Assembly: GCF_001579845.1 (NCBI RefSeq)
Contig: NZ_CP007440.1
Coordinates: forward strand, 5,912,029 to 5,976,028
Source of the DNA: Rhodoplanes sp. Z2-YC6860
GTDB lineage: Bacteria; Pseudomonadota; Alphaproteobacteria; Rhizobiales; Xanthobacteraceae
DNA: 64,000 bases
Direction: 5' to 3'
A program made the position numbers and the translations under genes. Shown piece by piece: positions 12,802 to 14,725 of this stretch (the stretch's first letter is position 1; every line of letters begins with the position of its first letter). Under the pieces are notes generated by a model. That model was not told the origin of the DNA, did not search any database, and was given only the letters and a program-made list of their open reading frames with translations.

Positions 12802-13233
12802 ATGGCACAACAGGTCGCCCCACCCACCACGCCTTATGGCGTCCCCATCAGCCTTGCCGCAGCCAAGCAGGCGATGGCCGCAGCGGAGGCGGAAGCCACC
12901 AAGAACGGCTGGGCGGTTGCCATTGCGATCGTCGATTCCGGCGCCAATCTCGTGATGACACACCGGCTCGACAACGCGCAGCTTTCGTCGGTGCGAATCG
13001 CCGAAGCCAAGGCCAGGACCGCGGCTGAATTCCGCAGGCCCACGAAAGTTTTCGAGGATGCGATCGCGGGCGGCGGCATAGGCCTTCGTGTCCTGACCTT
13101 CGGCGCCAGCGTTGCCGAAGGCGGCGTGCCGATCGTATCCGGCGGCACCGTCGTCGGCGCGATCGGCGTGTCGGGCGTACAGTCGCATCAAGACGCGCAG
13201 ATCGCGCAGGCCGGCGCCGACGCGGTCAAATAG
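12802..13233 (+). CDS. GlcG/HbpS (heme-binding-type) family protein
   Basis: A 143-residue protein of the GlcG/HbpS fold. Seen are ISLAAAKQAMAAAEAEATKNGW (first helix), VAIVDSGANLVMTHRLDNA (central strands), SVRIAEAKARTAA (helix), and the glycine-rich end GGVPIVSGGTVVGAIGVSG, all characteristic. No signal peptide is visible, so it is probably cytoplasmic. Members often sit beside glycolate or other catabolic genes; a biochemical activity is known for only a few, including heme binding in HbpS. It follows the DapA-like gene after 14 bases and is cotranscribed with it by position. Confidence 0.9.
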   Translation: MAQQVAPPTTPYGVPISLAAAKQAMAAAEAEATKNGWAVAIAIVDSGANLVMTHRLDNAQLSSVRIAEAKARTAAEFRRPTKVFEDAIAGGGIGLRVLTFGASVAEGGVPIVSGGTVVGAIGVSGVQSHQDAQIAQAGADAVK

Positions 13234-13249
13234 CGCCTCGGAAATGCCC

Positions 13250-13277
13250 CTTTGCATTTTCGCAAATCACGTATAGA
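13250..13277 (+). promoter_or_regulatory. Weak sigma70-like promoter candidate ahead of the structured region
   Basis: CTTTGC at 13250-13255 and TATAGA at 13272-13277 are 16 bases apart and sit just upstream of the first hairpin of the structured segment. The -10-like box is good and the -35-like box is poor. It could start an RNA near 13284. No experimental support is available from sequence alone. Confidence 0.3.
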
Positions 13278-13283
13278 CGCGAT

Positions 13284-13644
13284 TCTGCCTCGCTCACTGA
13301 GGGCGTCGACTAGGGACGTCTATTTGGCGGAGCGAGGTGTGGCGCCTGCAGGCGTGGCTCGTGACCACGTCCCAGGGTGTGAGGTCATCGTCCGTCCCCG
13401 ATGAGGGGGCCGCCTTCAGTGGCAGGGCGCGGTCGGGTGAAAGCGGGCGCAAATGCCCCCTGGAGCATGGTGGGTGAAAGCCCAGCCGGTCCGATCGAAT
13501 CTCGAACGGTGGCCTCGCAACAAATCGCCACAAGTGGAGCGCCGGGAGGCGAGCGGACCTGATCGCAAAGGTCCGCGGCACCTCTCGCAAAGGTGCCCCC
13601 AAGGTGCGCCGTCTCGGCGCTCCGCGCCCTCACTCATGTGAGGG
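13284..13644 (+). ncRNA. Candidate structured RNA (chain of hairpins), unassigned family
   Basis: A 557-base gene gap (13234-13790) contains a dense run of perfect hairpins: 13288-13295 with 13330-13337 (8 bp), 13343-13354 (6 bp palindrome), 13353-13357 with 13365-13369 (5 bp), 13386-13390 with 13399-13403 (5 bp), 13445-13448 with 13455-13458, 13553-13559 with 13570-13576 (7 bp), 13577-13583 with 13591-13597 (7 bp), 13606-13611 with 13615-13620 (6 bp), and 13627-13633 with 13638-13644 (7 bp). Two GGGTGAAAG segments lie at about 13434 and 13471. No reading frame across it looks like protein. It may be a small RNA, a long leader or tail, or an inserted repeat; strand is assigned only from the promoter-like boxes upstream. 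It does not match RNase P RNA, tmRNA or a riboswitch core that I recognise. Confidence 0.5.
13627..13644. terminator. Hairpin closing the structured segment
   Basis: CCCTCAC, TCAT loop, GTGAGGG: a perfect 7-bp hairpin at the end of the hairpin chain. There is no T-run after it, so intrinsic termination on the plus strand is doubtful; it may simply be the last domain of the RNA candidate. Confidence 0.3.
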
Positions 13645-13790
13645 ACCAGGAAGAATAGAGGCGCTGGCCCCGCGCCTGCTTTGAAGGGGCCGATGAATCA
13701 CGCCTGCAAGGATGCGGAGGACACGCGGTGCGCAGACCAGCGAAGCGGCGCCGTCCTTTCGGGGGATATGACCGACAGCGAGCAGCAGTC

Positions 13791-14456
13791 TCAGGCGACG
13801 ATCTTGGCCTGCGGCCGCGATGCCGTGACCCGCGCCTCCACCGGGCGCCTGCCAGGCAACGGCTGCGTCACGAAAGCGGCGAAGCGCTTCCACAGACTTC
13901 GCGGCGGCTCACCGTTTTGCAGGGTCGCCATCGCGTCGTTGTTGGACTCGGCAAGGCAGCCGCGCATTCGGATGCCGAACCAGAACAGCGGATTCCAGCT
14001 GCGCCACACCGCCGCAGCGTCACGATACATCAGGCCGCCGGAAATCTGCGGCACGCCGCCGAACACCTGCGGCATCACGTCCGATATTTCCTGGTCGCTC
14101 AGCACGCCCCATTTCGAGAAGCCGCCCATCATCGGCGAGCTGATCGAATAGACCACGCGTCGGATGCGCGTTTCTCGGATCGGAAACGAGCACATCGGGC
14201 ACGGCTCCACGTTGGAATAGAGCGTGCAGTCAGAGAGGTCCTTGCGGCCGAGAACCCGCTGCGCCTCCGAGATTGCGATGATCTCGGCGTGGCGGGTGAC
14301 GTCGGCGTCGCGAGAAACGCGGTTGGTGGTCTCCACGACGACCTCGCCGTCGCGGCAGATCACGCAGGAGAACGGCATCTCATGAGCGCGGACGGCATCC
14401 GCCGACAGCTCAACACAGCGCCGCATCATCTTCAGATCGATATCAGAGGGATTCAT
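13791..14456 (-). CDS. Nucleoside/cytidine deaminase-like zinc hydrolase
   Basis: A 221-residue member of the CMP/dCMP/guanine/tRNA-adenosine deaminase superfamily. The zinc site is complete: HAE at residues 56-58 (His ligand, Glu proton shuttle) and PCPMC at 85-89 (two Cys ligands). The deaminase core ends near residue 150; roughly 70 further residues at the C-terminus, rich in Arg and Trp, have no match that I recognise. This is longer than TadA or guanine deaminase (about 155). It could deaminate guanine, a cytosine derivative or another base. The stop lies about 145 bases past the candidate structured RNA and the gene is not obviously in an operon. Confidence 0.88.
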   Translation of the reverse strand: MNPSDIDLKMMRRCVELSADAVRAHEMPFSCVICRDGEVVVETTNRVSRDADVTRHAEIIAISEAQRVLGRKDLSDCTLYSNVEPCPMCSFPIRETRIRRVVYSISSPMMGGFSKWGVLSDQEISDVMPQVFGGVPQISGGLMYRDAAAVWRSWNPLFWFGIRMRGCLAESNNDAMATLQNGEPPRSLWKRFAAFVTQPLPGRRPVEARVTASRPQAKIVA

Positions 14457-14725
14457 TGCTCAGCACCAACTTGCCGCAGACAGTGCGGCAGCCCCAGCCT
14501 AGCTGTGGCGGTTTGACCCGCTCCAACTGAATGATTTCAACAAGCCCCCGCCCATGCTCGAAACCAATCAATCCAACCTACGAAAAAAAGTTCCACAAAA
14601 CCTTAACTAAGTTCCCATTTGGGGTGCAGTCCCGCAAGGGTTCGAATCGAGAAGCTTTAGGGCCGGACGGCCCGCCTGTAACGTATCTGTCGGGATTCCC
14701 CACGATTTGGTTCAAGCCGGAGCGT

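Follow-up and report, generated by a model that had tools for sequence, protein, structure and literature searches.

Large structured RNAs with conserved folds are rare in bacteria and their functions are mostly unknown. OLE, GOLLD and ROOL belong to this class and are mostly few-copy. Structured RNA without a linked protein can also occur in many copies, as seen for the guide RNAs of the IscB/TnpB type (HEARO/omega RNA). At the other end of the size range, the palindromic repeats Br-REP1 and Br-REP2 of Bradyrhizobium are found in many intergenic copies and consist of stem-loops of about 20-40 nt, according to PMC5082802, whereas the family described here is a multi-domain unit of 430-475 nt. 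One copy of it lies in the window, the 64-kb stretch of the Rhodoplanes sp. Z2-YC6860 chromosome that was analysed. It represents an undescribed multicopy gene for an intricately folded RNA. In searches of open-access literature, no paper on this RNA stood among the titles and abstract openings listed, and word searches of PMC11109978 and PMC8632094 (main text) found none of six Rhizobiales names.

The preliminary description drew attention to positions 13284-13644 for their unusual density of hairpins, and both stem counts and folding energy place this density above chance in comparison with shuffled sequences. Under a uniform rule (perfect, non-overlapping Watson-Crick stems with loops of 3-10 nt) the segment contains five stems that are 6 bp or longer, where shuffles average 0.8 +/- 0.9. 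None of 300 shuffles reaches five. When the window is cut into 177 equal tiles, with those over the region itself included, one of them does so. The excess is less striking for stems of at least 5 bp, where six are found against 2.7 +/- 1.4 in shuffles, a count also reached by 13 of 300 shuffles and 15 of 177 tiles. The density is real, but this rule does not recover the nine perfect stem-loops originally counted. The predicted folding energy of 13255-13680 is -222 kcal/mol on the plus strand (z -4.99) and -191.9 kcal/mol on the minus strand (z -2.66), with 0 of 100 shuffles as low in either case. Two adjacent hairpins had been noted for their similar CGCAA(A) loops; they are found at 13553-13576 (8 bp) and 13577-13597 (7 bp), both with CGCAAA loops, and the two GGGTGAAAG motifs are located at 13435 and 13472. 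The full unit is larger than this segment and extends past it at both ends (Table 1); with 13000-14560 as the query, another copy matches at 97% over exactly the limits of the whole element.

Table 1. Features of the window copy and the flanking reading frames (window positions)
Feature	Position	Strand	Details
GlcG-like ORF, upstream of the copy	12802-13233	+	Name assigned by eye
Whole element (RNA gene copy)	about 13251-13713	+	Limits placed where homology among copies ends
Promoter-like 5' block, start of homology	13251-13284	+	TTTGCA 13251-13256; TATAGA 13272-13277
P1 stem, 5' domain	13288-13337	+	13288-13295 pairs with 13330-13337
P1a hairpin, candidate dimerisation loop	13301-13321	+	7-nt loop GACTAGG 13308-13314; palindromic centre CTAG 13310-13313
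P2 long-range helix closing the middle domain	13339-13531	+	GTGGCG 13339-13344 with CGCCAC 13526-13531
P3 hairpin	13353-13369	+	Perfect stem; covariation
P5 stem enclosing two CGCAAA-loop arms	13534-13625	+	GTGGAGCGCCG 13534-13544 with CGGCGCTCCGC 13615-13625
P6 hairpin	13627-13644	+	CCCTCAC/GTGAGGG; perfect stem
3' H-type pseudoknot	13660-13691	+	S1 13660-13664/13672-13676; S2 GGCCCC 13666-13671 with GGGGCC 13686-13691
3' tail	13692-13713	+	boxA-like motif of many other copies absent beyond here
Nucleoside deaminase-like ORF, convergent with the copy	13791-14456	-	Name assigned by eye

The 8.19-Mb chromosome carries 54 recognised copies of this dispersed unit, which measures about 430 nt, or about 475 nt with boxA. 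A search of the genome with the segment returned at least 40 matches; those scored are the window copy itself and 39 more sequences, which are 79-97% identical to it. With a covariance model that covers 107 positions of the 5' domain, 51 places were recognised at E <= 0.001. Three weaker copies, whose E values were 0.003-0.02 when fetched loci were searched, came to light through their 3' boxA motif. The total of 54 counts two incomplete copies (L062 and L149), and a 5'-truncated one (L066) is additional to it. At about 460 nt per copy the family occupies an estimated 25 kb of one chromosome. In an all-against-all comparison, identity between copies rises to 98-99% across stretches of hundreds of bases; the similarity ends at the limits of the unit, and the flanking sequence is unrelated between copies. 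Counted from the 5' domain, left alignment ends cluster at -34 to -42; for pairs of copies that differ in the promoter-like block, the cluster is at about -2 to +12 instead. Right ends cluster at +405-430 and +470-475, with an extra internal cluster at about +270. These clusters are read as mosaic exchange between copies of a unit that would begin with the promoter-like block and reach as far as the 3' end. A short subtype (L083-L085, L120) lacks the middle domain. At L143:1534-1637 and downstream, the 3' half has been exchanged for unrelated sequence, and this copy is probably disrupted.

The family extends beyond its own genome. By blastn, 15 of 61 genomes match, the own genome included. The covariance model detects homologues in 162 of 296 sampled genomes of the bacterial family and in 32 of its 47 genera, with the 11 listed members of the own genus among them; this breadth matters in an RNA that has no match among the 4227 families of Rfam. 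In the order, 15 of 397 genomes match, 12 of them outside the family, and in a sample of the class the own genome is the only match among 385. The scans of family, order and class score 9-13 candidates per genome under strict filters. Relatives may therefore carry more than the several copies counted in them, and a missing match is weak evidence of absence. Among nine loci in other families, the 5' domain leads on to later helices in six (judged by eye) and L159 stops after the 5' domain; for L158 and L161 the inspected stretch did not include the match. A pattern scan of GTDB contigs found 25 stretches, all in MAGs, with titles naming Rhodoplanes, Pseudolabrys, Xanthobacteraceae, Bradyrhizobiaceae, Hyphomicrobiales, Alphaproteobacteria or Proteobacteria.

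Comparison of the copies settles two points: the unit is repeated, and its RNA fold is conserved. Alignment A1, made by MAFFT without structural information from 25 own and related copies, has 96.6% of cells paired in the 5' domain and double changes in 13 of its 26 pairs. The 65 doubly changed cells compare with 20.6 +/- 3.3 in shuffles, and 0 of 500 shuffles equal the observed value on any of five measures. Slid controls reach at most 52.7% of cells paired and at most 14 doubly changed cells. A second alignment of 65 distinct rows is biased towards the model, to which its rows were fitted; it gives 96.7% of cells paired, double changes in 18 of 26 pairs and 216 doubly changed cells, again unmatched in 500 shuffles. 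By helix, P1 (helix 1) has double changes in six of ten pairs with 97.6% of cells paired, and P3 (helix 4) in all six pairs with 93.8% paired. The P1a stem (helix 2) is 96.6% paired with double changes in one of seven pairs, and five vary one-sidedly. The earlier reading as a structured RNA is thereby supported, and the covariation among relatives that had been proposed as a check proves strong; the copy number, the palindromic loop and boxA had not been foreseen. The concern that many copies might mark an inert repeat is borne out for their number (at least 54) but not for their behaviour, as the structure is kept across genera and families. The unit is almost surely a family of structured RNA genes, to judge from these comparisons, and very likely an expressed one.

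Further helices lie outside the 5' domain. P2 reads GUGGCG/CGCCAC in own copies and GCGGCG/CGCCGC in many relatives (compared by eye), and it is also present in the MFE fold. A P5-type stem occurs in 116 of 133 hits, by a search run without shuffle control in which at least one stem (L101) is misassigned; several of the 17 hits lacking it are cut by contig ends. The variants of P5 covary (TGGCGCGCCG/TGGCGCGCCA, TGGTGCGCCG/CGGCGCACCA, TGAAGCGCCG/CGGCGCTTCA). For the 3' pseudoknot, which many copies show, a pair count on MAFFT alignment A4 is weak, with 60.5% of cells paired against 58.4 +/- 1.3 in shuffles (32 of 500) and two slid versions scoring higher on covariation. Because MAFFT had set own and related copies out of register, an alignment-free test was applied to the same 33 copies, which had been chosen from the 133 model hits for showing the motif. 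The 22 distinct loops match their own tails with a mean run of 4.64, compared with 3.65 +/- 0.17 for the tails of others, a difference found in 0 of 5000 permutations. This test establishes a match between loop and tail; the frequency of the motif is outside its reach. Own copies with another 3' tail (e.g., L068, L072, L074 and L075) lack this form of the pseudoknot. The alternative tail, CCGACAGGGAAATCTGG..., takes its place in these four and in L144-L147.

The absence of a plausible protein frame, asserted at the outset, is upheld: open reading frames exist mechanically, but none of four that were tested is kept across 40 aligned copies. A 102-aa frame on the minus strand is open throughout in five of the 40, and the other three tested frames are open in 30, 34 and 23. 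The length of the four is shifted out of frame in 25, 23, 27 and 24 of the copies, respectively. A protein-coding gene was rejected on these grounds, and a small ORF from the 3' ATGAATCACGCC was dropped because its ATG is not kept in relatives. Rfam 15 (4227 models) gives no match in the window at curated cut-offs; up to E = 10, the only hit within 13200-13800 is a chance one to mir-3569 (17.1 bits against a cut-off of 50). No tRNA or tmRNA is found in the window, and there is no match to the ribozyme, intron or guide-RNA families of Rfam. An autonomous transposon or group II intron was also rejected, with no kept frame, no Rfam intron match and a single, protease-fused reverse transcriptase in the genome. 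That enzyme, the only reverse transcriptase found, is a 517-aa ORF (L162:8078-9631, minus strand, at about 4.055 Mb). By eye it is a retron-like fusion of a reverse transcriptase with a trypsin-like protease, and it lies about 6 kb from the short-subtype copy L083.

The P1a loop is 7 nt long in most copies (115 unique hits surveyed). A self-complementary centre is present in 13 of 15 distinct 7-nt loops (CTAG in five, CATG in three, CCGG in three and CGCG in two), with all four self-complementary dinucleotides in use. The loops that break the rule carry CCCG (L103) and CCAG (L149, a truncated copy). Ten loops have other lengths; six of them contain a palindrome of the CNNG or GATC type, including CGATCG in the short subtype, and L148, L015, L029 and the doubtful hit L052 do not. 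On a rough tree of 105 rows built without the loop, the centre has changed at least 19 times and one row is not self-complementary. This tree rests on about 100 nt of mosaic genes and omits L149 and the rows with loops of other length, except for the 9-nt GATC loops. Since neighbouring loop bases cannot pair together, a palindrome kept through such changes indicates pairing with a second molecule. The same palindrome-covariation argument is made for the bridges of OLE and GOLLD in PMC12286853. The P1a loop is therefore probably the signature of a homodimeric kissing loop, and the RNA a homodimer. A dimeric DNA-binding protein on the P1a dyad is the alternative to RNA-RNA pairing, but the many G-U pairs kept in the stem suit RNA better.

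The 5' block of the window copy is of a type common to many own copies, and others bear an alternative block, TTGACGCA...TGATAAG; from these two conserved alternatives we infer that the own block has promoter activity. Own copies match the sigma-70 consensus in 1 of 50 cases, with no excess over shuffles (4.5%). Among related copies, 23 of 63 match TTGACA/TATAAT at 9 or more of 12 positions; a control region 140 nt upstream gives 0 of 63, and shuffles 5%. In all 23 the model begins 2-5 nt after the end of the -10-like hexamer. Another promoter-like block is shared across families: CTTATCCCCGC, with TTATCT or GTATAC about 16-18 nt further on, sits upstream of the copies in L024, L010, L023, L089, L128, L151, L156 and others. 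Words resembling ATTCCTA recur near the -35 to -10 region upstream of L088, L090, L094, L033 and others; together with the palindrome TATTCCTATAGGAATA in L088 they are a possible operator.

A boxA-like motif follows the RNA on its 3' side in 28 of the 50 own copies considered and in 15 of 55 from relatives; for the latter, the reversed pattern used as a control gives 0 of 55. It closely resembles the motif of the rRNA operon: the own rRNA leader bears GCTGTTTGACAGGTGAATC about 220 nt before 16S, and the commonest boxA of the copies, GCTGTTTGACAATTGAATC, agrees with it at 17 of 19 positions. A scan of the genome allowing up to 3 mismatches found 36 boxA-like sites, and 32 of these have a same-strand copy 226-381 nt upstream of them, against an expectation of 0.08; when the three copies located through the motif are left out, the count is 29 of 33. 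The other four sites are the rRNA leader and three unassigned ones. Whether NusB-S10 would bind the boxA of the copies is an even bet. The motif is missing from the window copy, where it was sought beyond the 3' tail, from 22 of 50 own copies and from 40 of 55 related ones, so it is not needed for a function common to all copies. Its position at the 3' end also means that it cannot protect the RNA itself from termination. A REP-like repeat, GTGTCATTGCCGGGCTTGACCCGGCAATCCATGAGC, directly follows the boxA-like motif of many copies (for example L037, L038, L041, L048, L050 and L057).

The best explanation, to which we assign a probability of roughly 55%, is a trans-acting, homodimerising structured RNA linked to Nus factors. 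Every copy would be transcribed on its own, and the RNA would pair with a second molecule of the same subtype via the self-complementary P1a loop. Transcripts bearing boxA would recruit NusB-S10, tying the RNA to the rRNA antitermination machinery. The assembled RNA would then act in trans as a scaffold or a Nus-factor sink, and not as the leader of the next gene. Both neighbours were called, with a home-made codon-usage script, for 46 of the 54 copies: 24 lie in convergent gaps, eight and seven in tandem gaps and seven between divergent genes. In 31 of the 46, the gene that follows the copy has the opposite orientation, which argues for trans rather than cis action. A hand count places 34 of 50 copies in co-orientation with replication (GC-skew switches taken as origin and terminus; four copies at 0-0.5 Mb excluded); it is not counted as evidence, which would take a genome background for comparison. 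Trans action, as opposed to mobility alone, is reasonably favoured, and titration of Nus factors in particular is improbable.

The main rival is a selfish, non-autonomous mobile element whose fold would serve its own spread, guiding a trans-supplied protein or being its substrate, with no gain for the host. Dispersal in at least 54 copies that end sharply and have unrelated flanks fits mobility too, as does placement in harmless spots such as the convergent gaps (24 of 46). In related MAGs, several hits are found where contigs end, as happens with repeats. No protein frame is kept, however, no ribozyme, intron or guide-RNA model of Rfam matches, no TnpB-type family was found in the genome, and the sole reverse transcriptase is the fusion mentioned above. 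The interiors of the copies are mosaic, the pattern expected of gene conversion. Searches for carriers found no blastn match at E <= 0.01 in 72,556 plasmid records and, by one exact pattern, none in IMG/VR. A purely selfish element seems possible but unlikely; the two accounts may both be partly true. A cis-acting leader, whose fold and boxA would control transcription or translation of the next gene, would explain why many copies carry a boxA-like motif on their 3' side, and a statement in PMC5725501 on E. coli was counted in its favour. It is very improbable given the opposite-strand neighbours already noted and a window copy that runs into the 3' end of the convergent deaminase-like ORF. 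An inert hairpin-rich repeat with no RNA-level function, which the high copy number and the REP-like repeats adjoining many copies might suggest, is the least credible reading, contradicted already by two alignments whose compensatory changes, among copies from several genera, are equalled by 0 of 500 shuffles on any measure, as well as by the loop-tail complementarity of the pseudoknot.

A broader picture can be sketched, which we put forward as speculative. The copies could form a multigene family of self-recognising RNAs, with dozens of loci bearing subtype-specific palindromic codes (CUAG, CCGG, CAUG, GAUC...) that each pair only with themselves. Gene conversion would keep the genes alike, as in rRNA genes, and in the many copies with boxA this motif would couple their output to rRNA synthesis or make it compete with it. 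Since the loop is palindromic, swapping loops would be a direct test for RNA homodimers in cells, and boxA provides a handle on the possible link to rRNA transcription.

The family can finally be set against the known systems. The leader of the rRNA operon contains the same boxA motif, but in the copies boxA follows a structured RNA and no rRNA comes after it. In contrast to HEARO/omega RNA, the family lacks an Rfam match and its genome a detected family of the TnpB type. With OLE, GOLLD and ROOL it shares the character of a long, multi-helix candidate RNA without a protein frame. The profiles of these three, which we take to be among the 4227 Rfam models, were not matched by the family in the Rfam searches. 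It further differs from them in its at least 54 dispersed copies in one genome, in the boxA at the 3' end of many copies and in a distribution that was found here only within one order of Alphaproteobacteria. Switching between palindromes, as seen in the P1a loop, also occurs in L9.3 of OLE and L21a of GOLLD, as reported in PMC12286853. By this one tested feature, the covariation of a palindrome, the RNA appears to work like the homo-oligomeric ornate RNAs.
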